64,000 nt of DNA, from positions 4,176,501 through 4,240,500 of the forward strand of contig NZ_CP061038.1 of the NCBI RefSeq assembly GCF_014490665.1, given 5' to 3'. The notes beneath the pieces were generated by a model. That model was not told where the DNA came from and did no database searches. It saw nothing but the letters and a program-made list of their open reading frames with translations. The first letter of the stretch is position 1. Every line of letters starts with the position of its first letter. The translations under genes were made by a program, and so were the position numbers. Shown piece after piece: positions 7,000 through 48,828 of this stretch. The stretch is from Sphingomonas alpina. GTDB taxonomy: Bacteria > Pseudomonadota > Alphaproteobacteria > Sphingomonadales > Sphingomonadaceae.

Positions 7000-7077
7000 T
7001 TCGGCGCCAGATCCTACGCCAAACTCGGCGATGATGCGCGTAATCTCCTGCGACCCGAGCCGGCAGGCCTGACAACC

Positions 7078-32634: not shown

Positions 32635-32746
32635 GCCTTGCTACCCCCGCCCTAGATTAAATCTGATCATTTTTTATCGAACCTGATTGTTTACGACCAT
32701 AGCCTGTTGTAGAACGCCGTCAAACGAGAATGAGGGGATTCGACCG
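32635..32746. promoter_or_regulatory. Divergent rha promoter region with 20-bp-phased repeats
   Basis: The spacer between rhaB and rhaEW is AT-rich in its centre. CTGATCATTTTTTATC (from 32663) and CTGATTGTTTACGACC (from 32683) are similar and start exactly 20 bp apart, two helical turns, as expected for a DeoR-family regulator binding in tandem. The rhamnose regulator encoded at 36255 is the obvious candidate. Operator function is inferred from spacing and place only. Confidence 0.45.
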
Positions 32747-34863
32747 ATGGCCGATCGTACATCATCATTGCAGGCCGGTTCGGAAAGTCTGGCCTTCGCC
32801 GTCCCGGCCAATCTCTGGTCGGAACCGACCGCAGCCGTGCTGTCGCCGGAAAATCTGCTGCTCTATCGCTCCAATCTGCTGGGCAGCGACCTGACCATCA
32901 CCAATTTTGGTGGCGGCAACACCTCGGCCAAGCTGGACGAGACCGACCCGCTGACCGGCGAGACGGTGAAGGTGCTTTGGGTCAAGGGATCGGGCGGCGA
33001 TATCGGCTCGATGAAGCTGAACGGCTTTTCGACGCTGTATCTCGACAAGCTGATCGGTCTCGAGCGGCTCTATCGCGGGGTCGAGCATGAAGACGAGATG
33101 GTCGGCTATCTGCCGCACTGCACCTTCAATCTCAATCCGCGCGCAGCATCGATCGACACGCCGCTTCACGCTTTCCTGCCCTTCGCGCATGTCGACCATG
33201 TCCATCCCGATTCTGTCATTGCGCTGGCGGCCGCCAAGGACGGCGAAGCTGCAGTGCAGGAGATCTGGGGGGCGCGGTCGGCTGGCTCGGCTGGAAGCGC
33301 CCGGGCTTCGACCTTGGCCTGCGGTTGCGCGACCATGTCGCCGCCAATCCCGGCTGCATCGGCGTGGTGCTCGCCGGGCACGGCCTGATCTGCTGGGCCG
33401 ATACGTCGCGCGACTGTTACGACCGCACCATCGGCCTGATCGCCGACGCCGCGGCCTATCTCAATACGAAGCTGGCGCTGCGCCCCGATTTCGGCGGCGA
33501 GGTCGCGCCGACTCTCCCCGCCGCCGACCGCAAGGCCGCCGCCGCGCGGCTGATGCCGCGGCTGCGCGGGCTGATGACAGGTGAGCAGTCGAAGGTTGGG
33601 CATTTCTCCGACGATGCCGGGTCGCTGCAGTTCGCCGGGTCGGCCGATTTCGCCCGGCTCGCGGCGGTCGGCACCTCCTGCCCCGATCACTTCCTGCGCA
33701 CCAAGATCGCGCCGCTCGTGCTCGATCCGGCGCAGCTCGACGACGATGCCTATCTCTCGGCCCAGCTCGGCGCATACCGCGAGGGCTATGCCGCTTATTA
33801 TCAGCGCTGCGTCCATCCCGGCGATCCGGCGATGCGCGACCCCAATCCGGTGGTCGTGCTGATCCCCGGCATTGGCCGCATCACCTTCGCCGCCGATAAG
33901 ACCACCGCGCGGCTGGCGGGTGAATTCTACGGCAATGCGATCAACGTGATGCGCGGCGCCGAAGCGATCGGCGGCTATCTCGGTCTGCCCGAGCAGGAAG
34001 CCTATGACATCGAATATTGGCTGCTCGAAGAAGCCAAGCTGCAGCGCATGCCCAAGCCCAAGTCGCTGGCAGGCAAGATCGCGCTGGTCACCGGCGGCGC
34101 GGGCGGCATCGGCATCGCCAGCGCGGAACGGCTGCTCGCCGACGGCGCGTGCGTGATGCTGCTCGACCGCGATGCCCAGACATTGGCCGGCGCACGCGAG
34201 ACGCTTGAGCGCAAGTTCGATGCCGACCGGGTGCGGTCCTCGCTGTGCGACGTCACCGATGAAACGCAGATCGCCGCCGCCTTCGCCGATTGCGCGCGAG
34301 AATTTGGCGGGCTCGACATTCTGGTCGTCAATGCCGGTATCGCATCCTCGGCCTCGATCGAGGATACCAGCGTCGAGATGTGGAGCCGCAATTACGACGT
34401 GCTGGCGCAGGGCTATTTCCTGACCTCGCGCGAAGCCTTCCCGCTGCTGCGCGCGGCGGGCGGCGGATCGATCGTGTTCATCGGATCGAAGAACGGCATC
34501 GCGCCGGCGACCAACGCTTCGGCCTATGCCTCGGCCAAGGCAGCGGCGCTGCATCTCGCGCGCTGCCTCGCGCTTGAGGGCGCGCCGCACGGCATCCGCG
34601 TCAACACGGTCAATCCCGACGCGGTGATCAAGGGATCACGCATCTGGGACGGCGACTGGCGTCAGGAACGCGCCGATGCGCACGGCATCGATTCGGGCGA
34701 GGAGCTGGAGGCGCATTATCGCAACCGCTCGATGCTCAAACGCGACGTGCTGCCGGCCGATGTCGCCGAAGCCGTGGCCTTTTTCGCATCCGCGACATCG
34801 GCGAAATCAACCGGTAATCTGCTCAACGTCGATGCCGGCAACGCTCAGGCCTTTCCGCGCTAA
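32747..34863 (+). pseudogene. rhaEW: Rhamnulose-1-P aldolase/lactaldehyde dehydrogenase RhaEW, frameshifted
   Basis: The first part (32747 to about 33270) encodes the class II aldolase domain start, with FGGGNTSAKL and the metal-site HVDHVHPDS. The second part (about 33267-34863) continues the aldolase (CIGVVLAGHGLICW) and then an SDR domain with VTGGAGGIG and YASAK. The frames join at a run of six G (33267-33272): seven G would restore one 706-aa protein reading IWGGAVGWLGWKRPGFDLG. RhaE cleaves L-rhamnulose-1-P to DHAP and lactaldehyde, and RhaW oxidises the latter to L-lactate. The gene may be truly broken, slippage-corrected, or carry a base-calling error in a homopolymer. Everything around it looks intact, which favours an error or phase variation. 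Confidence 0.85.
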
Positions 34864-34890
34864 TAAGTGATGATTTGAGGGAGATACAGG

Positions 34891-36186
34891 ATGGCGAACG
34901 GCCCCGCGCTGACGCTCGACCAGATCGGTAGCCATAATGCCGAGCGCATCGATGCGCTGGCGGAGGATTATGCCGCGCTGGATCGCCAGCTGGCGCGTCG
35001 CGGCGTCGACATCGCACAGGTGAAGAGCGCGGTCGCGACCTTCAGCGTCGCGGTGCCGAGCTGGGGCGCCGGGCGTGGCGGCACGCGCTTCGCCAAATTC
35101 CCGATTCCCGGCGAGCCGACCAACATCCATGAGAAGCTCGAGGATTGCGGGCTGATCCAGCAGCTCGGCCAGGTCACACCGCGCGTCAGCCCGCATTTTC
35201 CATGGGACAAGGTCAGCGACTACGCCGCGCTGCGCGAGGAAGCGGCGAACCTTGGCCTCGGTTTCGATGCGGTCAATTCGAACACCTTCCAGGACCAGCC
35301 CGGCCAGGCGCACAGCTATCGCAGCGGCAGTCTGTCCTCGACCGATGCCGATGTCCGCGCCCAGGCGATCGATCATAATATCGAATGCATCGAGATCGGC
35401 CGCCAGCTCGGCTCGCGCGCACTGACCGTGTGGGTCGGCGACGGCACCAACTTCCCCGGCCAGCAGCATCTCGGCCGCTCGCTCGACCGCTATCTCGATG
35501 CGGCGGCGCAGGTCTATGCCGCGCTGCCCGGCGACTGGCGCATGCTGCTCGAACATAAATTGTTCGAACCGGCCTTCTACTCGACCGTCATTTCCGACTG
35601 GGGATCGTCGATGATGGCGGCGCAGGAACTGGGTCCCAAGGCGATGTGCCTGATCGATCTCGGCCATCACGCGCCCAATGTGAACATCGAACAGATCGTC
35701 GCGCGGCTGCACAAGGCGGGCAAGCTCGGCGGCTTCCATTTCAACGACAGCAAATATGGCGATGACGATCTCGACGCCGGCGCGATCAACCCGCACCAGC
35801 TGTTCCTGATCTTCAACGAGCTGGTCGAAGCGGCGCTCGAACCGCGCACCGGATTCGATCCGGCTTATATGATCGACCAGTCGCACAATGTGACCGACCC
35901 GATCGAAAGCATGCTCTGTTCGGCCGAGGCGATCGTCGGCTCCTTCGCCAAGGCGCTGCTGGTCGACCGCGAGGCGCTGCGTGCGGCGCAGGAGTCGAAC
36001 GACGCGATCATCGCCTTCCGCGCGCTGCGTCGTGCCTATGATACCGATGTGGCGCCGATTGTCGCGCTGGCGCGGGCCGAAGCCGGTGGTGCGATCGACC
36101 CGCTTGCGCTGTACCGCACGCTTGGCTGGCGCGAGCGCAAGGCGCAGGAGCGCAATACCGTCGGTCTGGGCGCCGGAATCGTCTGA
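34891..36186 (+). CDS. rhaI: L-rhamnose isomerase (RhaI type)
   Basis: A 431-aa TIM-barrel isomerase converting L-rhamnose to L-rhamnulose. It belongs to the RhaI group typical of Rhizobiales, Sphingomonadales and Bacillus rather than the E. coli RhaA group. Metal-site segments are LLEHKLFEPAFY, CLIDLGHHAPNVN and GFHFNDSKYGDDDLDAG. GAGGGAGA precedes the ATG by about 8 bp. It follows rhaEW by 27 bp and precedes the DeoR-type regulator, so the three form one operon. Confidence 0.92.
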   Translation: MANGPALTLDQIGSHNAERIDALAEDYAALDRQLARRGVDIAQVKSAVATFSVAVPSWGAGRGGTRFAKFPIPGEPTNIHEKLEDCGLIQQLGQVTPRVSPHFPWDKVSDYAALREEAANLGLGFDAVNSNTFQDQPGQAHSYRSGSLSSTDADVRAQAIDHNIECIEIGRQLGSRALTVWVGDGTNFPGQQHLGRSLDRYLDAAAQVYAALPGDWRMLLEHKLFEPAFYSTVISDWGSSMMAAQELGPKAMCLIDLGHHAPNVNIEQIVARLHKAGKLGGFHFNDSKYGDDDLDAGAINPHQLFLIFNELVEAALEPRTGFDPAYMIDQSHNVTDPIESMLCSAEAIVGSFAKALLVDREALRAAQESNDAIIAFRALRRAYDTDVAPIVALARAEAGGAIDPLALYRTLGWRERKAQERNTVGLGAGIV

Positions 36187-36209
36187 TGATCGGATATGCT
36201 TGCATCCGC

Positions 36210-36229
36210 GCGTATCAGGCGTGATACGC
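36210..36229. promoter_or_regulatory. 20-bp palindrome upstream of the rha regulator
   Basis: GCGTATCA-GGCG-TGATACGC is a perfect inverted repeat with 8-bp arms, 26 bp before the regulator ATG. A second palindrome, TTAAAGG-C-CCTTTAA (36241-36255), covers the ribosome binding site AAAGG and touches the start codon, so a hairpin could mask the site. An autoregulatory operator or translational control is plausible. Confidence 0.45.
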
Positions 36230-36254
36230 TGACGGGACCCTTAAAGGCCCTTTA

Positions 36255-37058
36255 ATGCACGCAGAAGATCGCGACCGACTGATCCTTGAGCTCATGCGCG
36301 AACGGGGATTCGTGTCGTTCCAGGAACTGGATCGCTCGCTCGAAGCATCGGGCGCGACCTTGCGTCGCGACCTCGACCGGCTGGAGAGCAACGGCAAGAT
36401 CGTCCGTGTGCGCGGCGGCGCGCGGCTGGTCGATGCGCCGGACTCACCCGCTGGGGCAGCGGGCGGCAATGACGGGCATCTGCGCGGCGTTCCGTTCCAT
36501 GAGAATGTCGAACGCAACCGCGCCGCCAAGGAAGCGATCGGCCGCGCCGCCGCCGCTTTGTGCAGCGCGGGCGAGACGGTGATCATCGACGGCGGATCGA
36601 CCACGCTGCAGATGTGCCCGCTGCTCGCCCCGCTCGAGCTGCATGTGCTGACCAATTCACTGCACATCGTCAGCGCGCTGATCGGCCAGCCCGGCACGCA
36701 TATCTCGATGCCCGCCGGCACGCTGTTTCGCGAACAGAACATCCTGCTCCCCCCGTTCGACGACGACGGGATGAGCCGCTACCGCGCGTCGAAGCTGTTC
36801 ATGGGCGCAGCGTCGATCGGCCGGCACGGCCTGATGCAGACCGACGTGCTGCTGGTCCATGCAGAACGCCGCCTGCTCGACCGTGCCGACGAAGTGATCG
36901 TGCTGGTCGACAGCAGCAAGTTCGGCGCGCCCGCCGGCCATGTCGTGTGTACTGCCGACGAGCTGGACGTGGTGATCACCGACGACGGCATCACCGACCG
37001 CGATGCGGCGATGATCGAGAAGGCCGGGATCAAGCTGGTGGTCGCCCCGACCTTTTAA
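36255..37058 (+). CDS. rhaR: DeoR-family regulator of rhamnose catabolism
   Basis: A 267-aa DeoR/GlpR-type regulator. N-terminal HTH (RLILELMRERGFVSFQELDRSLEASGATLRRDLDRLE) with the GKIVRVRGGA wing, then the phosphosugar-binding DeoRC domain: IIDGGSTTLQM, VLTNSLHIV, and VLVDSSKFG at the end. In Rhizobium a DeoR-type RhaR controls rha genes; by neighbourhood the same is expected here, with rhamnulose-1-P or a related sugar phosphate as effector. It is the last gene of the rhaEW-rhaI-rhaR group. Confidence 0.88.
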   Translation: MHAEDRDRLILELMRERGFVSFQELDRSLEASGATLRRDLDRLESNGKIVRVRGGARLVDAPDSPAGAAGGNDGHLRGVPFHENVERNRAAKEAIGRAAAALCSAGETVIIDGGSTTLQMCPLLAPLELHVLTNSLHIVSALIGQPGTHISMPAGTLFREQNILLPPFDDDGMSRYRASKLFMGAASIGRHGLMQTDVLLVHAERRLLDRADEVIVLVDSSKFGAPAGHVVCTADELDVVITDDGITDRDAAMIEKAGIKLVVAPTF

Positions 37059-37295
37059 AGCAGCAGCAATAATTCCAAGAACAGACTTAGCTCTACATTG
37101 TTTCGGAGCCGAAATGTCTAAGCCGTTAACTTAAATCCATATCGGCTCTTTATGTAGATTGTGCATTTTAACATATGCGCAACTCGAAACATGAACAATT
37201 TGTCATTTGACTAGCCTTTCCGTGCGCCTGCATCCTTCGGACGCCACAGGATCTCGAATCCGGTGGCTTAGGAGTAGAAAAGGAAGGGTAGTACC
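37059..37295. promoter_or_regulatory. AT-rich leader region of the peptide cassette
   Basis: This 237-bp gap is markedly AT-rich between 37060 and 37220. It contains an inverted repeat GAGCCGA (about 37106) / TCGGCTC (about 37143). TTGACT near 37207 could be a -35 element, with CATCCT 18 bp later a weak -10 candidate. No open frame is credible. The AGGAAGGG site at its end serves the first peptide gene. Confidence 0.35.
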
Positions 37296-37409
37296 ATGAC
37301 GTTCGAAGAAATCAGTACGATCGACGCACCTACCGACGCAGAATTCTGGGCAGGTGTCGCTGGAGGCGCCTTGGTTACGGTTGGAATAGGCTTGCTATTC
37401 ATCTCGTAA
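37296..37409 (+). CDS. 37-aa hydrophobic precursor peptide 1 (RiPP/bacteriocin-like)
   Basis: A small gene with a strong ribosome site (AGGAAGGG, 8 bp before ATG). The peptide begins MTFEEISTIDAPTD, an acidic leader-like half, and continues with a Gly/Ala/Val-rich hydrophobic half containing AGVAGGALVTVGIG and ending LLFIS. Gly spacing gives GxxxG-type helix packing motifs. The gene just downstream has the same length, the same MTFEEI start and a similar end. Together with the M50 protease, E1-like enzyme and exporter that follow, the likely role is precursor of a processed, exported membrane-active peptide. The sequence is seen; maturation is inferred. Confidence 0.75.
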   Translation: MTFEEISTIDAPTDAEFWAGVAGGALVTVGIGLLFIS

Positions 37410-37440
37410 TATTTCCACCTAACCAGAAGGAAACCTTATA

Positions 37441-37554
37441 ATGACTTTCGAAGAAATCGATATCGTCGATGCACCTGTGTCGGATCTGAGCGCCGGCATT
37501 GCCACGGGAATCGGCATTGGCCTCGGCATTCTCGGGCTGATGTTCGTCAGCTGA
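37441..37554 (+). CDS. 37-aa hydrophobic precursor peptide 2 (RiPP/bacteriocin-like)
   Basis: A second 37-codon gene 31 bp after the first, with AGAAGGAAA before its ATG. Leader MTFEEIDIVDAP matches peptide 1 at 9 of 12 positions. The second half is a glycine zipper (SAGIATGIGIGLGILG) ending LMFVS, parallel to LLFIS in peptide 1. Conserved leader plus diverged hydrophobic core is the usual pattern of RiPP precursor pairs or two-peptide class IIb bacteriocins, whose helices meet through GxxxG motifs. No Cys, few Ser/Thr, so lanthionine or heterocycle chemistry is unlikely. Confidence 0.75.
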   Translation: MTFEEIDIVDAPVSDLSAGIATGIGIGLGILGLMFVS

Positions 37555-37623
37555 CGGCTGGAAATGCATGGACCGGGGCGTGACGACCACGTTGCGCCCC
37601 GTACCCGACGGAGCAAGCGCCCG

Positions 37624-38691
37624 ATGCTGAAGGTCAAGGACAGCCTGGAATTCTATGCCCTGGAGGGTGGATTGTTCCACATTTACGACGTGTCGACCGC
37701 GCGCCATTTCAAGCTGGGGCAGCAGGAGGTCACATGGCTGAGGCTGCTCGACGGCACCCGCTCGCAGGAACAGCTGGCAGCTCGAATCCCGTTCGAATAT
37801 TTCCAGAAATTCGTCGCGACCGTCGCCCGCATGGGCCTGCTCGAAACGGCAGCGGCATCCAAGAAAGCGATTTCGCCGCTTAAGATCAAGGTGCTGAATG
37901 TCGATCCCGCCTGGCTGATCGACGCGCATCCACGATTCGCCCGAGTGTATCGCGAGATGCTGAGCTGGGCGACGCTTCCAATCTTTCTGTTCAATCTGTT
38001 CCTGATCGCGGCGCTGTTTCCGTTCGCACGGCCGGCATTGACCGGCTTCTCGGTCGGGTTCGGCATCATCCCTTTCTACCTGGCCTCAATCCTGGTGATC
38101 GGTCTGGTGCATGAGCTGTCCCACGCGTTTGTCGCGCGCTCCTATGGCGTGAAGGTGCCGCGGATCGGCCTGATGCTGTTCTTTCTTCACCCGGCCTTTT
38201 ACGCCGATGTCAGCGCCATCAACATGCTGACCGACCGGCCCAAACGGTTGCGCACGCTATTCGCGGGCATCCAGGCGAATAATCTACTCGTGACGGTCGC
38301 GCTGGTTGCGGCCCTGTTCCTGATCGGTACGCCGGCATTTCCCTATGCCATCCTGTTCGCCGGCCTCAACGCCATCCTGATCTTCGTCAACCTGATCCCG
38401 TTCGTCGAATATGACGGTTATTATATCTTCCAGGAGCTGGTTGGCGAGCCGAACTTCAATCGCAACGCCTTTATCAATGTGATGGGATCGACGCAGCGCA
38501 GGGCCGACTATGTCCTGTACTTCGCCGTCAGCCAGATATTCCAGGTGGCATTGGTTATCTCCGCGCTGCTCGTGTTGCGAACCGGGGCGAACCGGCTCTG
38601 GCCAAGCCCGATCGTCGATATCGCATTCCTGGTTCTGCTCGTCCTGACGCCGCCCATCCTGGGCATGCTGCGCTTTCGAGCGATGAAGTAA
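37624..38691 (+). CDS. M50-family membrane metalloprotease with PqqD-like N-terminus
   Basis: A 355-aa protein. An in-frame ATG at 37564 would add 20 residues; 37624 (MLKVKDSLEFY) is preferred as GGAG lies upstream. Residues 1-80 look like a small winged-helix PqqD/RRE fold (FHIYDVSTARHFKLGQQEVTWLRLLDG). The rest has six or more membrane helices with the site-2-protease zinc motif HELSH (H163, E164, H167) and a distal NLIPFVEYDGYY motif (D264). This matches the peptide zinc metalloproteases of RiPP loci such as YydH. It could cleave the MTFEEI leaders in the membrane. Confidence 0.78.
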   Translation: MLKVKDSLEFYALEGGLFHIYDVSTARHFKLGQQEVTWLRLLDGTRSQEQLAARIPFEYFQKFVATVARMGLLETAAASKKAISPLKIKVLNVDPAWLIDAHPRFARVYREMLSWATLPIFLFNLFLIAALFPFARPALTGFSVGFGIIPFYLASILVIGLVHELSHAFVARSYGVKVPRIGLMLFFLHPAFYADVSAINMLTDRPKRLRTLFAGIQANNLLVTVALVAALFLIGTPAFPYAILFAGLNAILIFVNLIPFVEYDGYYIFQELVGEPNFNRNAFINVMGSTQRRADYVLYFAVSQIFQVALVISALLVLRTGANRLWPSPIVDIAFLVLLVLTPPILGMLRFRAMK

Positions 38692-38696
38692 CGCGC

Positions 38697-40118
38697 ATGG
38701 CCGACTATCACCTGAACCCGTTCTGCTTTGTCACGGACACGCCGGGCGGAGTGATCCTGAATGCGGTGCCGGATTTGCGCGTCACGTTCGCGCATGAGCA
38801 CCGGGCGATCGTCGATGTGCTGATCGCGCGCGCGAGCGTGTCGGAACAGGATATGCTGAAGCTGATCGCACCGACGCGGTTACGCGAACTGGTCAGCAAG
38901 AAGGTGCTGCTGGAACGCCCGATCGAAGGGCTCGACGGACGCTATTCGCGCCAGCTCGGCTATTTCTCGATGACGTCCGACACGCCCGAGGCGTTCGGAC
39001 AAGCGCTGGCGAACGCTCATGTCCTGATCCTGGGCGTCGGGGCGATCGGCAGTCATGTGTTGTGGAATCTTGCCGCGATCGGCGTTGGCCGGATCACCAT
39101 CCTCGATTTCGACGTGGTCGAGGAAAGCAATTTCAATCGCCAGCTGATGTACACCCCCGCCGACCTCGGCCAGTTGAAGGTCGATGTGATCGCGGACGCT
39201 ATTCGCAAATTCAATCCCGAGATCGAGATCGTCGCGCTCAATCGAAAAATCGAATCGGAACGCGACGTCAGCGACCTGCTCGACGGCGTCAACCTGGTCG
39301 TGAAGGCGATCGACACGCCTGAGGAATCGAACAACTGGGTGAACTCGGCCTGCGTCGCCGCTCGCGTGCCCTTCGTGATCGGCGGCTTCCTGGACTATGT
39401 CGGCGTGGTCGGCCCCAATTATATTCCCGGCCGATCGAGTTGCTACGCCTGCTTAGGCGACCCAGGCCAGATCCGTCGGCTGCATGGCAAGGGGGCCACG
39501 TTCGCACCGCTGACGACCACCGTCGCATCGAAGATCGCAATGATCGCATTCAAGATCCTGATCGGCGACGATGAAAACTTTGCCGACAAGATCTTCAGCT
39601 ACGACACCCGCCTGGGCCGGTGGTTCGTCGAAGATGTTATCCCGGCAGCACAATGCCCGGTGTGCAGCAGCGCGCCTATCACACGTGAGACGATCGATCC
39701 CCGGCGCACCAACACGATCCTGTTCCGGTCACTGATGACGGCCGCCATGCTGATCACGGTCGTCCTGCGCGAGTATTTCGGGCAAGAGCTGATCGGCGTG
39801 CTGACATTCGCCGCCGTGCTCATGTCGATCCCCGTCATCGATGCGATCCAGGGTCACGACGCGGTGCGAACGCGCCGCGAATTCTTCGTCATCAGCGCAA
39901 TCTATATCGGATCGAGCCTGCTGGCCCTCATCCTTGGCGCAATAAATCATAACGACGTGATGCTGCCGCACAGCATGGCGCAGCTGTTCGATACCGTACG
40001 CGCAATCTGCATCGTCGTCACACAGGCAGCAATCGGAGTCACCGCCTTGTTCATCGGCATGTGCGGGCTGCTCGAATATGCGCCGAAGACCCTGTCCTTC
40101 TTCAATCAGGATATTTGA
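38697..40118 (+). CDS. ThiF/E1-like adenylating enzyme fused to a membrane domain
   Basis: A 473-aa protein. Residues 1-90 form a winged-helix-like part typical of RiPP-associated ThiF proteins. Residues about 100-330 are an E1/ThiF fold: GVGAIGSHVLWNLAAIG nucleotide loop, DFDVVEESNFNRQ with Asp and Arg for ATP, and two zinc CxxC pairs (C249/C252 and C320/C323). Residues about 345-465 contain four hydrophobic helices, which is unusual for this family. E1-like enzymes adenylate a peptide C-terminus or backbone; here the substrates are probably the 37-aa peptides. It starts 5 bp after the protease gene. Confidence 0.75.
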   Translation: MADYHLNPFCFVTDTPGGVILNAVPDLRVTFAHEHRAIVDVLIARASVSEQDMLKLIAPTRLRELVSKKVLLERPIEGLDGRYSRQLGYFSMTSDTPEAFGQALANAHVLILGVGAIGSHVLWNLAAIGVGRITILDFDVVEESNFNRQLMYTPADLGQLKVDVIADAIRKFNPEIEIVALNRKIESERDVSDLLDGVNLVVKAIDTPEESNNWVNSACVAARVPFVIGGFLDYVGVVGPNYIPGRSSCYACLGDPGQIRRLHGKGATFAPLTTTVASKIAMIAFKILIGDDENFADKIFSYDTRLGRWFVEDVIPAAQCPVCSSAPITRETIDPRRTNTILFRSLMTAAMLITVVLREYFGQELIGVLTFAAVLMSIPVIDAIQGHDAVRTRREFFVISAIYIGSSLLALILGAINHNDVMLPHSMAQLFDTVRAICIVVTQAAIGVTALFIGMCGLLEYAPKTLSFFNQDI

Positions 40119-40131
40119 GAGGAGTAGTATG

Positions 40132-40314
40132 ATGCAACGCCTGAAAGTCTTGATCATCTGTGTGGCCGCGCTGTTGACCATCCTGGCCGCGACCGTCGGA
40201 AAATGGAGCAGTCATGTCGCCCTGACCGACAATCAGGCGCTCGGCGCGATCTTCGCGGCCGAGTTCCTGCTGTTCATCGGCCTGATCTACTCGATGCGGC
40301 ATCACGCCGCTTGA
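40132..40314 (+). CDS. 60-aa two-TM protein (possible immunity protein)
   Basis: A small membrane protein with helices at about 5-22 (VLIICVAALLTILAATV) and 37-55 (LGAIFAAEFLLFIGLIY), a short hydrophilic loop and a basic end (MRHHAA). GAGAGGAG precedes two adjacent ATGs; the second has better spacing. It follows the E1-like gene by 13 bp. Small two-TM proteins often give self-immunity in bacteriocin clusters, so this is the first candidate; no direct evidence. Confidence 0.6.
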   Translation: MQRLKVLIICVAALLTILAATVGKWSSHVALTDNQALGAIFAAEFLLFIGLIYSMRHHAA

Positions 40315-40358
40315 TCGCCCGCGTCCAGACCGCAGCAATGCAGAAGGGAGCCAGCGGC

Positions 40359-41057
40359 ATGTCGTTGCTGACAACTTATCTCGTCATGCTCTTCGACCCG
40401 CGAAGAGCTTTTACTGCCGCGCTGTCCAGAAAGGTCTGGACGCTCCTCCTTCCGCTTACCCTTGCGATCGTGTTCACGGCCCTACTCAACATCTTCTATT
40501 TCTATCATGTCGATCTCGCCTGGCTCCGCGACCAGATGACGGCGACCATGCCCAAGGCGCAGCGCGATATCGCGCTGCCATTCTACACCCGCGGGCGGTT
40601 GATCGGCATCAGCCTGTTCGGCGTGGTGTTGCTGGCACTGGTGGTCAACCTGGGGCGCGCCTTCATCTTCTGGATCATCTTCAAGGTCCGCGGCGGTGAT
40701 ACCCAGCGCTTCACCCGCCTGTTCGCGATCGTGATGTGGTCGACGGCACCGCTCGCGCTGATCCTGCCGGCGGGCATATTGAACATCATGCTCGCGCCTG
40801 AGGGTCGGCTGGCGGGCAACGACGTGAATCCCGTATCGCTGAACCAGTTGCTGTTCCATCTGCCGCCCAGTTCGGGCTGGGGGCAGTTGCTGTCGACATT
40901 CAGCCTGATCAATATCTGGGAAATGGTGCTGATCGCGATCGGCCTGCAAGTCGTTGGCAATTTGAAGTTCACGCGCGCAGCGTTGATCGCCATCGCCCCC
41001 GATGCCTTGGTGTACGGCATCTGGGCCGCTGCCCTGCTCGCGAGCGGTTCCACCTGA
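40359..41057 (+). CDS. Yip1-domain-like membrane protein
   Basis: A 232-aa protein with about five hydrophobic helices. The start at 40359 (MSLLTTYLVMLFDPRRAF) has GGGAG 8 bp upstream. The N-terminal DPRRAF segment, the central ARFTRLFAIVMWSTAPL-like block (here TQRFTRLFAIVMWSTAPL) and the C-terminal helices resemble the Yip1 family. Bacterial Yip1 proteins appear beside MacAB-type transporters but have no settled role. Here it might support export or immunity. The stop lies 2 bp before the adaptor gene. Confidence 0.6.
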   Translation: MSLLTTYLVMLFDPRRAFTAALSRKVWTLLLPLTLAIVFTALLNIFYFYHVDLAWLRDQMTATMPKAQRDIALPFYTRGRLIGISLFGVVLLALVVNLGRAFIFWIIFKVRGGDTQRFTRLFAIVMWSTAPLALILPAGILNIMLAPEGRLAGNDVNPVSLNQLLFHLPPSSGWGQLLSTFSLINIWEMVLIAIGLQVVGNLKFTRAALIAIAPDALVYGIWAAALLASGST

Positions 41058-41059
41058 GA

Positions 41060-42301
41060 ATGAATCGCCGCATCCTATTGCCCGTGCTGGCGGCCTTCAT
41101 CCTGGTCTCCCCCTTCCTCGTCCGCTTCTTCGCGCGATCTGCCGCGACCGAGGTCGAGGTGGAGCCAGTTCGCCTGCGCGACATTCGCGAAACCGTGCTC
41201 GCGACCGGCAACCTCATCTACCGGCAACAGGCGCTGCTTTCGCCCGAGATCATTGCTCGCGTGAAAACCGTGCAGGTGAAGGAAGGTGACGAGGTGACGC
41301 AGGGGCAGGTGGTGATCACGCTGGAGGACGAGAATCTGCGCCAGGCGGCCGCGCAGCAGCGCGCGCAAATGGCAATCGAAAACGCCAACCAGGCGCAACA
41401 GCGCTTCAACGTCAGCAACCTGAAACTGCAGTTGGATCGCGTCACCAATCTGGCGGACAAGGGGTTCGTATCGAAGGCGGCCTATGACAGCGCCTATTAT
41501 GCGCTGAATGCGGCAAAAGCGAACCTGACCGGCACGGGAATGGCGGTCACGCGCGCGACCGCCGAGCTCAAACAAGCCCAATATGTGCTCGATCGCACGG
41601 TGATCCGCGCGCCGATGTCGGGCACAGTGGTCTCGGTCAACATCAAGACGGGCGAAACCGCGGTCCCAAGCGCGACCGGCATCCCGGGGTCGAGCCTGCT
41701 GACGATCGCGCGCAAGGAAACGATCATGGTCGACCTGAACGTCGACGAGAATGACGTCGGCCGCCTGGCACTGGGCAGCGAAGCGCAGATCATCTGCCCG
41801 ATGCTTCCCGATCGCGGCATTACCGGCCATCTGCGTGAGATCGCGCTGGCACCGCGACGTGCTGCCGAGGTGTTGCCGATCAATGACGCGACCGGCCGCG
41901 CCTATTCGGTCAAGGCAGACATTACCGGACCGCAATCGGGGCGTTTGCGCCAGGGCATGTCCTGCCGCGCAAAGATCTATACCTCGAGCCCCGCACCGAT
42001 CCTGGCGGTACCCGTACAGGCGGTACTGAGCGATCAGACAACGGACGATGACGGCATCAGCCTACCGCAGGATCGTCGCGCCGGAATCCGCAATTATGTC
42101 TTCGTGATCGACGGCGACCGTGTCGCGCGCCGCTATATTCGTGTCGGCAATGCAGATGATGCCTATCAGGCGGTCACCAGTGGCTTGCGCCGAGATGAGA
42201 AGGTGGTGGTCGGTCCCTATGCGGTGCTGAAATCGCTTGTCGACGGCGCGAAGGTCTCGTCCAAGCTCGGCCAGGGGGCGACCAATGGCGCCACTGATTG
42301 A
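41060..42301 (+). CDS. HlyD/MacA-type periplasmic adaptor
   Basis: A 413-aa adaptor of the membrane fusion protein family. An N-terminal membrane anchor (about 5-25) is followed by a biotinyl-lipoyl-like half (VKTVQVKEGDEVTQGQVVITL), a long alpha-hairpin with coiled-coil character (about 85-160), the second lipoyl half (VIRAPMSGTVVSVNIKTGE) and beta-barrel and membrane-proximal domains. It would link the ABC permease below to an outer-membrane factor. Its end overlaps the ATPase gene by 17 bp. Confidence 0.88.
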   Translation: MNRRILLPVLAAFILVSPFLVRFFARSAATEVEVEPVRLRDIRETVLATGNLIYRQQALLSPEIIARVKTVQVKEGDEVTQGQVVITLEDENLRQAAAQQRAQMAIENANQAQQRFNVSNLKLQLDRVTNLADKGFVSKAAYDSAYYALNAAKANLTGTGMAVTRATAELKQAQYVLDRTVIRAPMSGTVVSVNIKTGETAVPSATGIPGSSLLTIARKETIMVDLNVDENDVGRLALGSEAQIICPMLPDRGITGHLREIALAPRRAAEVLPINDATGRAYSVKADITGPQSGRLRQGMSCRAKIYTSSPAPILAVPVQAVLSDQTTDDDGISLPQDRRAGIRNYVFVIDGDRVARRYIRVGNADDAYQAVTSGLRRDEKVVVGPYAVLKSLVDGAKVSSKLGQGATNGATD

Positions 42302-42965
42302 ACTCCGGACGCTGAAGCGGACCTATATCGTCGGCTCGGAAACCATCTTCGCGCTGGACGGCGTGCATATGGCCGTTCGCCGCAACGAGTATCTCGCACT
42401 GATCGGGTCGTCGGGGTCGGGCAAATCGACCCTGATGAACATTCTGGGCTGTCTCGACCGGCCGACATCGGGCGAATACCTGCTCGATGGAACCGATGTG
42501 GCGGCGAGATCGGAACGCGCCCTGTCCGAGATACGCAATCGCCGGATCGGATTCGTATTCCAGAACTTCAACCTGTTGCCGCGCATATCGGCGCTGAAGA
42601 ATGTGATGCAACCGCTGATCTATCGGCCGGGATCGCGCAAGGACCGCATCGCCAGCGCCGAGCGCGTGCTCGACCGTGTCGGACTGCTCAACCGCAAGAA
42701 CCATTTGCCCAACGAGTTGTCGGGCGGTCAGCGGCAACGCGTGGCGATCGCGCGTGCTCTGGTGACGGCACCGTCGCTGCTGCTGGCCGATGAACCGACA
42801 GGCAATCTCGATTCAACCACGGCAGCGGATATCCTCCAGCTCTTCGACGAACTGCACGGCGAGGGTCAGACGGTCATCCTGGTGACGCATGACGAAGCGA
42901 TCGCACGGCGATGCCAGCGCCGGATCACCCTGCGCGACGGCAGGATCCTGTCGGACGAGAGCTGA
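42285..42965 (+). CDS. ABC transporter ATPase, MacB/LolD type
   Basis: A 226-aa ATPase. Start at 42285 (MAPLIELRTLKRTY), inside the end of the adaptor gene. Walker A GSSGSGKST, Q-loop FVFQNFNLLP, signature LSGGQRQR, Walker B LLLADEPTG, and the H-loop VTHDE are all intact. It belongs to the MacB/LolD subgroup that works with FtsX-fold permeases. With the adaptor and permease it makes a MacAB-like exporter, in Gram-negatives used for peptides such as microcins and toxins. Confidence 0.92.
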   Translation: MAPLIELRTLKRTYIVGSETIFALDGVHMAVRRNEYLALIGSSGSGKSTLMNILGCLDRPTSGEYLLDGTDVAARSERALSEIRNRRIGFVFQNFNLLPRISALKNVMQPLIYRPGSRKDRIASAERVLDRVGLLNRKNHLPNELSGGQRQRVAIARALVTAPSLLLADEPTGNLDSTTAADILQLFDELHGEGQTVILVTHDEAIARRCQRRITLRDGRILSDES

Positions 42966-42970
42966 CGCGC

Positions 42971-44200
42971 ATGGGCATGGTGCTGCAATGCCTGTTGCTT
43001 GCACTCGACAGCATCCGCGCTCGCCCTTTGCGGAGCGTGATCACGTCACTGGGCATCGTCGTTAGTGTGGCATCGGTCATCGCGGTGGTGTCGATCATCC
43101 AGGGCCTGTCCTATTCGGTGATCCGTAATTTCGAAGGGCTCGGCACGAATGTATTGACGATCCAGTCGTCAACGCCATTTCGCGAACAATTACTGGGTCA
43201 GTCGAACCGACTGCAGATGAAGGATTATCTGCTGATCAAGGCGAAGTTCGGCGATATCGGCCGGATCGTTCCCTCCTTCGCGCCCTTTGGCCAGTTCGGT
43301 GCGCGAATTTCGAGCGGTGCGGAAACCAACCAGACGCGAATGCTGGCGGCGACCGCGACCTACAAGGACACGATCAGGGTATTTCCCCGGATCGGCCGGT
43401 TCGTCACCGACAGCGACAACCGTTCGGCCCGCCAGGTCTGTGTGATCGGCGAGCAGGTACGCAAAAATCTGAAGCTGCCCGCCAACCCGATCGGCCAGTT
43501 CGTCGAGGTCGGTGGCTTTTCACTCAAGATCGTCGGCATCATGGAAACGCGCGGCGACCTGCTGGGGATCAGCCAGGATGATTATATGGTCGTGCCGTTC
43601 GCGATCGGGCAGCGGATCATGCCCAATGAAAGCCTGCAGGACATCACCATCCTGATCGACGTCACCGATCTGTCGCGGCTCGGCGAACTGCAGCGCCGCA
43701 TTGAGGGGACGCTACGCCAGGCCCATGCGTTGTCACCGGGACAGGACGACGATTTCCGCGTGCAGACCGCGCAGCAACTGACCAAGTCGGTGTCGTCGGT
43801 GACGGATTCGATTACCTATGTACTGGGTGGTGTCGTCGGTATCTCACTGCTCGTCGGCGGGATCGGCATCATGAACATCATGCTGGTGTCGGTGACCGAG
43901 CGAACGCGCGAGATCGGCATTTGCAAGGCGCTCGGCGCACCGCGCCACGTCATCCTGCTCCAGTTCCTGCTGGAGGCAGTCATCCTGTCGCTGATGGGCG
44001 GCGTGACCGGGGTGTTTGCCGGCTGGATCATCGGGCTGCTCGGCACGCTGTTCATTCCCGGCTTGCCTCCACCGATGATCCCGGGCTGGTCGATCGGGCT
44101 CTCGCTCGCCTTCTCGACCATGGTCGGCCTGCTGTTCGGTGTGATTCCTGCCGCCAAGGCCTCCGACCTCGATCCCCTGGCGGCGCTCCGCTACGAATGA
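42971..44200 (+). CDS. ABC transporter permease, MacB/FtsX type
   Basis: A 409-aa permease. Start at 42971 (MGMVLQCLLLALDSIRARPLRS) just after the ATPase stop. One N-terminal helix (VITSLGIVVSVASVIAVVSI), a large periplasmic domain (about 50-270), then three C-terminal helices with the FtsX signature GGIGIMNIMLVSVTERTREIGICKALGA and the end ASDLDPLAALRYE. This is the mechanotransmission MacB topology. It is the last gene of the peptide cassette; an 8-bp hairpin covers its stop. Confidence 0.92.
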   Translation: MGMVLQCLLLALDSIRARPLRSVITSLGIVVSVASVIAVVSIIQGLSYSVIRNFEGLGTNVLTIQSSTPFREQLLGQSNRLQMKDYLLIKAKFGDIGRIVPSFAPFGQFGARISSGAETNQTRMLAATATYKDTIRVFPRIGRFVTDSDNRSARQVCVIGEQVRKNLKLPANPIGQFVEVGGFSLKIVGIMETRGDLLGISQDDYMVVPFAIGQRIMPNESLQDITILIDVTDLSRLGELQRRIEGTLRQAHALSPGQDDDFRVQTAQQLTKSVSSVTDSITYVLGGVVGISLLVGGIGIMNIMLVSVTERTREIGICKALGAPRHVILLQFLLEAVILSLMGGVTGVFAGWIIGLLGTLFIPGLPPPMIPGWSIGLSLAFSTMVGLLFGVIPAAKASDLDPLAALRYE

Positions 44201-44221
44201 GGCGCCGGCGAGACGCCTCAT
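44197..44221. terminator. Hairpin between convergent genes
   Basis: ATGAGGCG (44197-44204) pairs perfectly with CGCCTCAT (44214-44221) around a 9-nt loop; the stem includes the permease stop codon. There is no T-tract, so it is a weak intrinsic terminator at best. It lies in the 36-bp gap between the exporter and the convergent GH3 gene. Confidence 0.4.
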
Positions 44222-44236
44222 CGTCTGGTCCTGACG

Positions 44237-46792
44237 TCAGGGCACCCGGGCAGTGCCGGTGATTTCGATCTCCTTCACCGCGCGAATATCGTCCGATGCT
44301 GCACCGATCAGCAACCGGTAGCGGCCGGGCCGCACCATCCATGCCTTTGCCGCCACATCGTAGGTCGCGAAGGCGCGGCGATCGAGCGTCAGCGCGACTG
44401 GCTTCACGCCGCCGGCCGGGACCGCCACCTTGGCGAAGGCCTTGAGCTGCTTGACTGGCTCAGTCGCGGCGCGATCGACTGGTGCGACATAAAGCTGCAC
44501 CACTTCCATCCCGTCGCGCTTGCCGGTGTTGCGGACATCAAGCGTGACCTTCGCCGTGTCGCCCGCCTTGATCCGCGGCGGTGCGACAGGCTTGCCATAA
44601 TCGAAGCTGGTGTAGGACAGGCCATGGCCAAAGGCGAAAAGCGGCTTCACCGAGCGCGCGTCAAAGCTGCGATAGCCGACCAGCAAGCCTTCGCCATAAG
44701 TACTGGTGCCCGCATCGATCTTGATCACGTCATCGCCATCGCTGGCCGGGAAGGTGACCGGCAGCCGACCCGACGGATTGACCTTGCCGGTGAGGATACC
44801 CGCCAGCGCGGCCGGGCCGGACTGGCCGGTGAGCCACATATCGACGATCGCCGGAACCTCGTCCTTCCACTTCATGGTCATTGCCGCGCCGGCATTGACC
44901 ACCACCACGGTCTTCCGGTTGGCCGCGGCGATCGCCGAAACGAGCTTGTCCTGGTCGCCCGGCAGGTCGATCGAGCTGCGGTCATAGCCCTCGCCTTCGG
45001 TCAGGCTGTTCGAGCCGACGATGACGATTGCCGCATCCGCCGACCTTGCCGCGGCAACCGCTGCTTCGAGCGACGGCCGCGGCACGCGCACGCCGAAATT
45101 GAGCGATTCATAGATCGACTTGCCGTTCGAATAGTCGAGCCGGATCGGATAAGCCTTGCCCGCCTCGAGCTCGATCGACGCGGTGCGTCGCCCGACCGGA
45201 AAGCCGATTACGTCGCGATTGTCGGGAACCGCCGCCGTCGATTTGTCGATCAGCGTCTTGCCGTCGAACAGCAGACTGCCCTTGCCAGTGCCGCGAATGC
45301 TGAATTCGTAGCGCCCCGACACCGGCGCCCAGAACAGCCCCTCCCAGCGCAGCGACAGATAATTGGCCGATTGCGGCCCGGCGACATTGCCGCTGATTCG
45401 CTTGAGGAAAGCGGTGGCGACATCGGTGGCAACGGGCGCGCCCGACTGGTCCGCCATGGCGTAATAGCTTTGCGTGAGCCCCTTTTTGCTTCGGCCGGCA
45501 TCCGGGCTGAACATCGCCGCCTCGGCTGCCGGGGGCACTTCCTCGCTATCGACGCCGGGCTGGTAGACGATCGTTACCCCGGGCAGCGCCGCGCGCAACG
45601 CGTCCAGCGGCGTGGCGATGGCATCGAACGGCTGCACCGCGGAACTGCCGCCGCCCTGAATGCGCGCCTTGGCCGCATTGGGGCCGATCACCGCCAGCGT
45701 CTTGATCGCCGGATCGAGCGGCAGCACGCCGCTGTTCTTGAGCAGGACGATCGCCTCTTCAGCGGCACGCTGCGAGATCGCGGCATGCGCGGGGCCGCCG
45801 ACCATGCCCCCGGTGCCAGCGGTGCCCTCGATCACGCCGCTGCGCACAATCAGACGCACCATGCGTCGTGCGGTCTCATCGATCTGCGCCGGCGTGACTT
45901 CGCCCGCCTTTGCGGCGGCGAGCAGCTTGGCCCCGAAATGCTGCGGCGGGCCGGGCATCTCCAGGTCGAGCCCGGCATTGATCGCCTTGGCGGTGGTGTG
46001 GGTCGCGCCCCAGTCCGACACGACGAAACCCTTGAAGCCCCATTCGGTCTTCAGCACATCCGCCAGCAGCCAGCGATTCTCGCCCGCATAGGTGCCGTTG
46101 AGCTTGTTGTACGACGCCATCACCGACCAGGGATCGAGCGTCTTCACCACCGTTTCGAAGGCTGGGAGATAAAGCTCGCGCATGGTCCGCTCATCGACCG
46201 CGGAGTTGGTGAAGAAGCGGTTGGTTTCCTGGTTGTTCGCGGCAAAATGCTTGATCGAGACGCCGACATGCTTGTCCTGCACACCGCGGACATAGCCGAG
46301 CGCGATCTGCGTGGTCAGCCAGGGATCCTCAGAATAGGTCTCGAAATTGCGCCCCCAGCGCGGCGTGCGCACGATGTTGACGGTCGGCGCGAGCAGCACC
46401 GACGCGCCATAACCCCGTGCCTCCTCGGCGATCGCACCGCCAACCTGCTGCGCCAGTGCGGGATTCCAGGTCGCGGCGATCGCCACGCCGACCGGAAAGA
46501 CAGTCGCGGGCCGGCCCTCGGGCGAGCGCACGCCAGTCGGTCCGTCGGTCATCTTGACCTCGGGAATACCGAGCCGGGGCACGGCCTGGCCGGTCATGCC
46601 GGTCGCGCCGGCCATCAGCGACACCTTCTCCTCCAGCGTCAGCCGGGCCATCAGGTCGTCGACCCGCGCCTCGACGGGCGCGGCAGGATCGCGGAACAGC
46701 ATCTTGTCCTTATCCTGCGCGGTACCGGGCGTTGCAATCAAAGCGCAGGAAACCAGCAACGCCGTCCGCGACAGGAGAACCCGCATCGTCAT
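44237..46792 (-). CDS. Secreted beta-glucosidase, GH3 with PA14 insert
   Basis: An 851-aa enzyme. Signal peptide about 1-25. The GH3 N-terminal barrel has MTDGPTGVR, GRNFETYSEDP, KHFAANNQE and the nucleophile Asp in FVVSDWGA. The second alpha/beta domain contains a PA14-type insertion (LRWEGLFWAPVSGRYEFSIRG, about residues 470-540). A fibronectin III-like domain closes the protein (LDVRNTGKRDGMEVVQLY). GH3 enzymes with PA14 remove terminal beta-glucose from oligosaccharides or aryl glucosides. It is the last gene of the GH78 operon, its ATG overlapping the upstream stop, consistent with deglycosylation of plant glycosides. Confidence 0.92.
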   Translation of the reverse strand: MTMRVLLSRTALLVSCALIATPGTAQDKDKMLFRDPAAPVEARVDDLMARLTLEEKVSLMAGATGMTGQAVPRLGIPEVKMTDGPTGVRSPEGRPATVFPVGVAIAATWNPALAQQVGGAIAEEARGYGASVLLAPTVNIVRTPRWGRNFETYSEDPWLTTQIALGYVRGVQDKHVGVSIKHFAANNQETNRFFTNSAVDERTMRELYLPAFETVVKTLDPWSVMASYNKLNGTYAGENRWLLADVLKTEWGFKGFVVSDWGATHTTAKAINAGLDLEMPGPPQHFGAKLLAAAKAGEVTPAQIDETARRMVRLIVRSGVIEGTAGTGGMVGGPAHAAISQRAAEEAIVLLKNSGVLPLDPAIKTLAVIGPNAAKARIQGGGSSAVQPFDAIATPLDALRAALPGVTIVYQPGVDSEEVPPAAEAAMFSPDAGRSKKGLTQSYYAMADQSGAPVATDVATAFLKRISGNVAGPQSANYLSLRWEGLFWAPVSGRYEFSIRGTGKGSLLFDGKTLIDKSTAAVPDNRDVIGFPVGRRTASIELEAGKAYPIRLDYSNGKSIYESLNFGVRVPRPSLEAAVAAARSADAAIVIVGSNSLTEGEGYDRSSIDLPGDQDKLVSAIAAANRKTVVVVNAGAAMTMKWKDEVPAIVDMWLTGQSGPAALAGILTGKVNPSGRLPVTFPASDGDDVIKIDAGTSTYGEGLLVGYRSFDARSVKPLFAFGHGLSYTSFDYGKPVAPPRIKAGDTAKVTLDVRNTGKRDGMEVVQLYVAPVDRAATEPVKQLKAFAKVAVPAGGVKPVALTLDRRAFATYDVAAKAWMVRPGRYRLLIGAASDDIRAVKEIEITGTARVP

Positions 46793-47127
46793 TTGATCGC
46801 CGCGAGATCGGCAGCGACCTGGGCCAGCTTCTCGGGCGTCAGCGCGCCGTTCGAAAAGGGCACGACCTGATTGAGGCTGGCGCCCTTGAACGTGTCGAAC
46901 TGCTCGAGCGAGGTCAGGCCAGGCAGATCCTTGTCGATCACTGCCTTGCCCGCCGGATCGGCGACGATATCGGCGAGGGGCGTATCGAGCGTGAACTTCG
47001 CACCCCCTGCCGGGGTGGCGGGGGCGGCTGGCGGGACTGGGGCGGGGCCCGACGCGGTCTGAGCGGTGGCGGCAGTGGCAGTGGTGGCGGCGATCGAGAG
47101 CGCGATCAGCGCGGCAGCATATTTCAT
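46789..47127 (-). CDS. Small exported protein of the glycoside operon
   Basis: A 112-aa protein with a signal peptide (about 1-22, ending TAQTAS), a Pro/Ala-rich spacer and a soluble C-terminal part ([23 protein letters not shown] and onwards). I recognise no catalytic motif. Both junctions are 4-bp ATGA overlaps, with the CoA ligase upstream and GH3 downstream, so it is expressed with them. Its tight linkage to a GH3 enzyme suggests a periplasmic helper role; this is inference only. Confidence 0.65.
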
Positions 47128-48824
47128 AAGACTTCCTTTTCCTGGGATGGGGAGAGCTCGGCGACCATCGCCTCGCGAATGAGATATTTCTGGATTTTGC
47201 CCGTCACAGTTGTCGGAAACACATCGACGAAGCGGATATGGCGCGGGATCTTGTAGTGCGCGATGCGGCCACGGCAGAAGGCGCGGATCTCGTCCTCGTC
47301 GCCGACGGCGTCAACGCGCAGGCGGATCCAGGCGCAAAGCTCCTCGCCCATGCGCTCGTCGGGAATGCCGACCACGGTCACGTCCTCGATCGCGGGATGA
47401 CGGTAGAGAAACTCTTCGATCTCGCGCGGCGAGATATTCTCGCCGCCGCGGATCACCATGTCCTTCAAGCGGCCGACGATGCGGCCATAGCCCTGGGCAT
47501 CGATCACCGCGAGATCGCCGCTGTGCATCCAGCCATCGGCATCGAGCACATCGGCGGTACGATCCGGATCGTCCCAATAGCCAAGCATCACCGAATAGCC
47601 GCGCGTGCACAGCTCGCCGGTCTCGCCCGCCGCGACGATCGCGCCCGCTTCATCGATCAGTTTGCATTCGAGATGCGGCTGGACCCGTCCGATCGTCCCG
47701 ACCCGCGCCTCCAGACCATCGCTCATTGCGGTCTGGAAGCTGACCGGGCTGGTCTCGGTCATGCCATAGGCGATCGTCACATCGCGCATGTTCATCCGCT
47801 CGATCACCTGGCGCATGACCGATTCCGGGCAGCTCGCCCCCGCCATGCAGCCTGTGCGCAGCGACGAGAGATCGACAGGCGTGCGATCGAGTTCGGCAAG
47901 CTCGGCGATGAACATGGTCGGCACGCCGTACAGGGCAGTGCAGCGCTCGGCCTCGATCGTGCGCAGCACCGTCGCCGGATCGAAGGCGGGGCCAGGATAG
48001 ACCATCGCGGCGCCCAAAGTGATGCTCGCCAGATTGCCCATCACCATGCCGAAGCAGTGATAGAGCGGCACGGGGATACAGATGCGATCCTCCGGCCCCA
48101 GCCCCATTGCGCTGCCGACGAAATACCCATTGTTGAGGATATTGCGGTGCGACAGCGTCGCACCCTTGGGCAGGCCGGTGGTGCCGCTGGTGAACTGGAT
48201 ATTGATCGCGTCGCGCGGGTCGAGCGTCGGTCCGATCCGTGCGAGTTCGTCATGATCGGCGGGCGTGGCGTGCGCAGAGATCGCGTCGAAGTCGAGCCAG
48301 CCCGGACGCGTCGCGCCACCGATCTTGGCGACGATCGCCAGGCTCGGCTGCCCCGGCGCCTGCAACCGCCCGGGCGCCGAGCCCGGCAGTTCGGGGCACA
48401 GCTGTTCGACCATGCCGACATAGTCGCTGGTCTTGAACTCGGCAGCGACGACCAAAGCGCGCAAGCCCACCTTGGCGATGGTGAAGCCGGCTTCCTCGAC
48501 GCGATAGGCGGGGTTGATCGTGACGAGGATCAGCCCGGCACGCGCTGCGGCGAACTGAGTCAGCGTCCATTCCGCGCAATTGGGCGCCCAGATGCCGATC
48601 CGGTCGCCGCGCTCCATGCCCATCGCAAGCAAGCCCGCCGCCAGCGCATCGGCGCGCTCGAGCAATTCGGCAAAGCTCCAGCGAATGCCCTGCGCGACCG
48701 AGACCAATGCGTCGTGCTCGCCCCAGCGACGCGCGGCGATGGCCAGCGCCTCACCGATCGTGTGCTCGATCAACGGAGGCGCATCGGCGCCATGGACATG
48801 GGCGAGAGACAGCGGTGCAGACAT
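47124..48824 (-). CDS. AMP-forming acyl-CoA ligase
   Basis: A 566-aa ANL-family enzyme. Start at ATG 48822-48824 ([12 protein letters not shown]), 4 bp after the esterase stop; a longer frame overlaps that gene and is rejected. Motifs: [16 protein letters not shown] (A3), [10 protein letters not shown] (A5), [26 protein letters not shown] region (A7-A8) and the catalytic Lys in TVTGKIQKY. It activates a carboxylic acid with ATP and CoA. In an operon with a tannase/feruloyl esterase the natural substrate may be a phenolic or aliphatic acid released from plant esters; sequence alone suggests the broad medium/long-chain FadD-like group. Confidence 0.85.
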
Positions 48825-48828
48825 GATT

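Follow-up and report, generated by a model that had tools for sequence, protein, structure and literature searches.

The window analysed here, a stretch of 64,000 nucleotides from Sphingomonas alpina (contig NZ_CP061038.1 of RefSeq assembly GCF_014490665.1), carries on its + strand, at positions 37296-44200, a cassette of nine genes that probably makes a two-component ribosomally synthesized and post-translationally modified peptide (RiPP) by means of two precursors, an E1-like enzyme, an M50 protease and an exporter; this estimate concerns the cassette as a whole and leaves aside the kind of bond formed. It would stand for a RiPP family in which a leader and protease of the daptide type occur together with a membrane-anchored enzyme of the MccB type, a combination that we did not find described.

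The nine + strand genes lie where a preliminary description of this DNA had placed them and, as it had stated, are separated by small gaps, the largest (69 bp) being that between the beta and M50 genes. The alpha precursor (37296..37409) has 37 amino acids (aa), with the leader MTFEEISTIDAP and a 25-aa core ending in Ser, and the beta precursor (37441..37554) also has 37 aa, with the leader MTFEEIDIVDAP and a 25-aa core with a C-terminal Ser; the two had been called twins, and proved to be distinct paralogous types. They are followed by an M50 site-2 protease with an N-terminal RiPP recognition element (RRE) (37624..38691; Pfam PF02163, and 148 bits to NCBIfam NF041824), whose gene has a further in-frame ATG upstream at 37564, and by an E1/ThiF-like adenylyltransferase (38697..40118) with an RRE at residues ~1-75, an E1 domain at ~77-325 and four C-terminal membrane helices at ~335-470. 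These helices, already announced for the enzyme, appeared as four hydropathy segments. Hydropathy also indicated a small protein with two membrane helices (40129..40314), of 61 residues and not 60 as first given. The exporter genes comprise a Yip1/YknW-like membrane protein (40359..41057; PF04893, E 3.5e-14; YknW family NF052650, 57.7 bits with a cut-off of 110), a MacA/YknX-like periplasmic adaptor (41060..42301; TIGR01730, 154 bits, above its cut-off; Pfam HlyD_D23), a MacB/LolD/YknY-like ABC ATPase whose gene overlaps that of the adaptor (42285..42965; PF00005 [ABC_tran] and NCBIfam), and a YknZ-like permease of the MacB type (42971..44200; PF12704 and PF02687, MacB_PCD/FtsX). The Pfam scan of the nine genes thus returned Peptidase_M50, ThiF, Yip1, HlyD_D23, ABC_tran and MacB_PCD/FtsX, and it revealed no YcaO, no radical SAM domain, no regulator gene and no family matching the alpha and beta peptides.

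A profile search with six query peptides and a threshold of E up to 10 returned 43 proteins, every one of them at E 3.3e-4 or below. One of these (P0094) is identical to the window beta peptide, and the 43 matches plus the window alpha give 44 distinct peptides (alignment A4). The existence of this family rules out an origin of the peptides as chance short frames. All 44 peptides carry a leader/core junction of the type [DE][AT]P, their cores span 21-27 residues, and they end in Ser (24), Cys (19) or, in P0133, Gly. An acidic residue stands in the core just after the junction in 43/44, the remaining peptide being the alpha peptide P0136, the core of which lacks any Asp or Glu. When our own script divided the 43 matches according to how their cores begin, the 17 alpha peptides were all Ser-terminated and the 26 beta peptides ended in Cys (19), Ser (6) or Gly (1). 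Peptides found on contigs of equal size formed ten pairs, each made of one alpha and one beta, and shuffling the labels of those 20 peptides produced such an all-mixed pairing in 0.6% of cases. Between the window and the corresponding locus of an alphaproteobacterial metagenome-assembled genome (MAG; locus L021), the two peptide genes differ most often at the third position of the codons (14/8/24 and 11/9/22), an excess that matches what would be expected of translated peptide genes, with one comparison made per gene. Counted over their side chains, the two cores of the window are negatively charged (-2 and -1), unlike cationic bacteriocins, and because of this charge membrane action would be plausible by hydrophobicity only. 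As to two-peptide bacteriocins, the likeness seen from the sequences is the fixed pairing of alpha with beta.

Leader and protease point to the daptides, the products of Mpa/Dap systems of Actinomycetota and Bacillota. These systems likewise have a site-2 protease fused to an RRE, more than one short hydrophobic precursor, ABC export and an acidic leader ending in [ED]AP, daptides being cut after the Pro. The daptide_123 model matched 31 of the 44 peptides at E up to 0.1, and daptide models gave scores of 23.0 (cut-off 25) and 24.7 (cut-off 40) for the window alpha and 17.1 (cut-off 25) for the beta. The daptide protease MpaP matches the M50 protein at 28%, with a profile comparison probability of 99.6%. 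The M50 protein reached its 148 bits to NF041824, the equivalog model of the daptide protease (cut-off 300), over nearly the whole model, as against 41 bits, below the cut-off, to the YydH/LiaK epipeptide model; NF041824 was matched by 27/27 M50 proteins and YydH/LiaK by 25/27, and weak partial matches to NF041824 (~20 bits, none above the cut-off) occurred in 2/6 genomes. In the predicted model of the window M50 protein, residues 1-77 match RREs and residues 143-274 match site-2 proteases, and H163, E164, H167 and D264 are invariant in 27 aligned rows.

The same comparison separates the cassette from true daptides. As a reference we used three clusters on Streptomyces plasmids with 12 precursor genes, 11 of them distinct, whose products end in Thr and have cores starting with GWW, GFW, GWA or GWG directly after the AP. 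Only 1/11 of these has an acid among the first four core residues, whereas 43/44 do so in the present family; the invariant C-terminal Thr of daptides is replaced here by Ser or Cys (with the single Gly), and the cores, unlike those of daptides, pair as alpha and beta. Daptides carry a Dmp C-terminus and are made with MpaB, a decarboxylase (MpaC), an aminotransferase (MpaD) and a methyltransferase (MpaM), in whose place the cassette has the E1-like enzyme. At E 1e-3, tblastn with MpaB, MpaC, MpaD and MpaM (locus L033) matched nothing in the 64-kb window, in L021 or in a third locus, L023. The lack of a C-terminal Thr and of matches to these four proteins in the sequences searched rules out a true daptide. 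As judged from the sequences, leader and protease appear common to both systems and the chemistry does not.

The chemistry would instead reside in the E1-like protein, which matches MccB across residues 2-325, RRE included, so that the fusion of an RRE to an E1 adenylyltransferase domain is present. MccB is the closest solved structure both by sequence and by fold, and PaaA was matched too. R148, K161 and D206, to which a motif assigns the role of an intact ATP site, do not vary across 30 aligned rows from several phyla, nor do four cysteines. The E1 domain alone finds matches in 61/61 genomes (60 relatives plus the own genome), which, apart from the window gene itself, have ~26-38% identity and were not counted as family; a plain MoeB/ThiF housekeeping enzyme is ruled out by the RRE, the membrane domain and the gene linkage. 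An RRE plus an E1 adenylyltransferase domain is also what MccB, PaaA, GrcB, EnfB and IndF have in common, the last three being compared from papers alone. The cassette differs from these ThiF-like RiPP enzymes in the paired hydrophobic 37-aa substrates and the intramembrane protease of its operon, and from MccB in the four extra C-terminal membrane helices, located beyond the part that MccB matches. The microcin C precursor ends in Asn, a residue found at the end of 0/44 peptides here.

We examined whether these genes travel together. With a threshold of E 1e-10 the E1 search yielded at least 67 proteins, and with one of E 1e-15 the M50 search yielded at least 26, ~8000 candidates being scored in each. 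As a proxy for a shared contig we took longest contigs of exactly equal size, which may undercount since a cluster reports its longest contig only; by this measure 14/26 M50 homologues share a contig with an E1 homologue, and 8/43 and 5/43 peptide matches do so with an E1 and an M50 homologue, respectively. Adjoining locus tags were found for an M50 and two peptides (JWO25_3494, 3495 and 3496; since L021 has the very same peptides, this set is not independent of it) and for E1 plus M50 (KUL17_14910 and 14920; GRF59_27560 and 27565). At the DNA level, L021 contains alpha, beta, M50, E1, Yip1, adaptor, ATPase and permease in this order, with an open frame for a 66-aa two-helix protein after the permease (6883-7083), whereas the 61-aa protein of the window lies between E1 and Yip1. 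Locus L023 (9140-11985, genome G169) holds a minimal form consisting of alpha, beta, M50 and E1. The linkage of the peptides with protease and E1 genes in relatives, which the preliminary description had proposed as a check, is therefore conserved, and the recurrence of the order alpha-beta-M50-E1 in L021 and L023, together with the empty site in a relative described below, indicates that the grouping is more than chance.

Going by organism names, E1 homologues occur in Sphingomonas, Thalassomonas, Alteromonas, a Bdellovibrionales MAG, Paenibacillus and Carboxydothermus. We take these hosts to belong to Pseudomonadota, Bdellovibrionota and Bacillota. The family is seldom present in the species genomes sampled, G169 being the one genome besides the own: the searches, which scored at most four candidates per genome and may have missed some, matched 2/397 genomes of the family (own counted), 1/385 of the class and 1/398 of the phylum (the own in both), and 0/369 of another class of the phylum. 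A single-protein scan of genome contigs returned one locus, L021. The E1 search of plasmids gave no match at 1e-30, and among the 12 pattern matches in viral contigs there was no relative. A more distant E1-like group (P0046-P0055) was also noticed; the four members checked all have C-terminal hydrophobic segments, and P0057 has none.

The cassette is a single island with the unit 37052..44236, so that its earlier boundaries were nearly exact. This unit follows from the flanks of a same-genus relative (G033, locus L030), which adjoin with only 155 bp between them where the window has 7,185 bp. When window positions 30000-52000 were compared with L030 by blastn, 32228-37051 aligned at 90.9% and 44237-52000 at 87.0%, with nothing between, and tblastn of the M50, E1, Yip1, adaptor, ATPase and permease proteins (peptides and 61-aa protein not queried) found no match in the 19-kb L030 stretch. 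The GC content is 60.1% in the island and 65.1% and 65.5% in the flanks, and the M50 family has a single match in the own genome. To the left lie xylose-isomerase-like and DeoR genes, and to the right a GH3 hydrolase gene on the opposite strand. The intergenic region upstream of alpha (37059..37295, +; 44% GC) is likely a promoter/operator region, and a scan there found no sigma-70-like site. Inverted repeats at 37092-37199, in this AT-richer region, may be an operator or an RNA structure. By eye, the 155-bp empty site (L030 14006-14160) has G+C-rich arms resembling inverted repeats, perhaps a REP-type (repetitive extragenic palindromic) element.

Taken together, the genes would work as follows. 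Alpha and beta have leaders of the same type (MTFEEI..IDAP), which the RRE domains of the E1-like enzyme and of the M50 protease, predicted from their fold, would hold. By analogy with MccB, GrcB, IndF and EnfB, the membrane-anchored E1-like enzyme would activate one of the carboxylates of the peptide by ATP-dependent adenylation, and the AMP would then be displaced by a nucleophile that most likely belongs to this peptide too. The M50 protease would cut behind the conserved Pro and so remove the leader, as happens in daptides, and the YknWXYZ-type exporter would pump out the hydrophobic products, of 21-27 residues across the family, alpha and beta presumably acting together on the membranes of competitors. 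An immunity or escort role for the 61-aa two-helix protein is a guess. In the known RRE-ThiF enzymes a precursor carboxylate is adenylated and then captured by a nucleophile (PMC12250964, PMC12150305). The outcome is a Glu-Cys thiolactone with GrcB, a Trp-Ile bond with IndF and an imide or amide with EnfB (PMC12250964, PMC12150305). For the present family we tentatively propose, as a possibility that falls somewhat short of probable, a macro(thio)lactone from the acid after the cleavage site to the side chain of the C-terminal Ser or Cys; a GrcB-like (thio)lactone is put first because this bond involves both features that, apart from the leader, are specific to the class, namely the acid directly following the cleavage site and the terminal Ser or Cys. 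The full proposal is that of a new class of RiPPs whose two partner peptides, of transmembrane type, are closed at the membrane into a Ser macrolactone or a Cys macrothiolactone by a membrane-embedded E1-like enzyme and are then freed by an RRE-guided intramembrane protease as a two-component membrane toxin; as a whole it is doubtful.

Several points weigh against these proposals. The acid-free core of P0136 argues against an obligatory (thio)lactone with Asp, and the Gly-terminated P0133 is an exception to the Ser/Cys end. A ring from residue 2-3 to residue 25 needs a hairpin, yet the cores look like membrane helices. Moreover, the ATP site is expected to be cytosolic, and a membrane-spanning core would put the C-terminus away from it, so that the core would have to be modified before insertion, or the peptide would have to form a hairpin. 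The model enzyme itself is described inconsistently, since the mechanism paragraph on GrcB names the C-terminal carboxylate and other places a side chain (PMC12250964). At the level of the cassette, the model draws on the peptide family, the gene linkage, the catalytic residues, the predicted folds and the island; the linkage in metagenomes depends on equal contig sizes rather than on read DNA, and L023 has no exporter beside its E1 gene. The window peptides and M50 protein score below the curated cut-offs of the daptide models, and weak sub-cut-off matches to NF041824 turned up in 6/14 control genomes as well; a match to NF041824 as such means little, and it is the 148 bits of the window protein over nearly the whole model that appear informative.

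An alternative of about equal likelihood to this lactone keeps the same cassette and changes only the bond: the E1-like enzyme would adenylate the C-terminal carboxylate, which would then be captured by the freed N-terminus (giving a circular peptide), by the side chain of the terminal Ser or Cys (a beta-(thio)lactone), or by an external amine, lipid or nucleotide acting as a cap. Such a cap would abolish the charge of the C-terminus, an outcome that daptides reach in a different way. This is the sole carboxylate present in 44/44 cores, given that P0136 is without Asp and Glu, and it fits with MccB as the closest solved structure and with IndF and EnfB, both of which act on the C-terminal carboxylate (PMC12150305, PMC12250964). 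However, the near-invariant Ser/Cys end and the near-invariant acid would then need separate explanations, as the substrates of IndF, EnfB and MccB end in Ile, Ile and Asn (PMC12150305, PMC12250964).

Another reading, which we consider unlikely, is that the intramembrane protease matures the peptides into signals or pheromones rather than into membrane-active toxins. Site-2 proteases are used for signalling peptides too. Quorum-sensing roles have been proposed for the GRC and enterofaecin products (PMC12250964), but there is no regulator among the nine island genes in the Pfam scan, and toxins agree better with two fixed partners and with an exporter of the YknWXYZ type, through which Bacillus expels a peptide toxin (PMC4887032). 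Very unlikely, in our opinion, is a non-catalytic E1-like protein that serves as a docking partner, like Ocin-ThiF in azole RiPPs, the peptides being exported unmodified once the leader is removed. ThiF-like docking proteins do exist in YcaO clusters (PMC12150305), and with an RRE-like domain of its own the M50 protease does not strictly need a modification step; however, the ATP-site residues and the four cysteines are invariant in the 30 rows, and the nine genes include no YcaO. A decayed daptide cluster that lost MpaB, MpaC, MpaD and MpaM and came to lie beside an unrelated ThiF gene would agree with the daptide-like leader and protease and with the absence of matches to these proteins in the window, but it is hardly credible, being contradicted by the linkage of the E1-like gene to peptides and M50 in many contigs and by the rejection of C-terminal Ser and Cys by the daptide dehydrogenase MpaC (PMC10036551).

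The cassette can further be set against other known systems. The preliminary description had read it as RiPP-type from its precursors and from genes for leader recognition, activation, proteolysis and export, and this reading is supported, but YydF, which it had named as the nearest layout, has to be given up in view of the protease scores, the daptide-like leader and the closeness of the E1-like enzyme to MccB. Sequence comparison places the nearest kin among the daptides (leader, protease) and the MccB/GrcB-type ThiF enzymes. YydF and other epipeptides share the peptide and the M50 protease, and M50 leader proteases are listed for epipeptides and pearlins (PMC10885120); membership is ruled out by the lack of a radical SAM epimerase in the Pfam scan of the nine genes and by the weaker M50 score. 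GRC-type RiPPs resemble the family in a precursor acidic side chain and a C-terminal Cys (here an acid in 43/44, and Cys in 19/44 or Ser in 24/44), but they have radical SAM genes, absent from the nine genes, and the ring would be far larger here. The distant E1 homologue P0050, annotated RyT2_03620, has C-terminal hydrophobic segments, and a GRC-like cluster has been named in Lactococcus sp. RyT2, by its label the same strain (PMC12250964). TMcins provide a precedent for RiPP synthesis embedded in the membrane, in which a protease of the site-2 type and a small escort protein with two helices take part; compared by description, they also share the membrane-embedded precursor and ABC export, and differ in a DUF3267 protease, disulfide chemistry and Gram-positive hosts, where the cassette has M50 and E1 (PMC13252029). 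In Bacillus, YknWXYZ pumps out a peptide toxin (PMC4887032). Its Yip1/YknW, adaptor, ATPase and permease genes stand side by side as they do in the window and in L021, although the YknW score is below the cut-off and the exporter is linked here to a biosynthetic operon.

Regarding novelty, our literature search, supplements not covered, found no description of a ThiF/E1, M50 and RiPP combination. The main-text excerpts of two daptide papers (PMC10036551, PMC12338566) have no ThiF, and a ThiF review mentions no M50. Further ThiF clusters are mentioned in Figure S1 of PMC12150305, which may already show this family.

That a daptide-type leader and intramembrane protease are found with an activating enzyme of quite another kind suggests a modular exchange of parts among RiPP systems. 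If true, an E1-like enzyme with its own membrane domain working on peptides that resemble membrane helices would bring activation of the ubiquitin type into the chemistry of peptides within membranes, and the conserved alpha/beta pairs with their nearly fixed Ser/Cys end make a small testable system.

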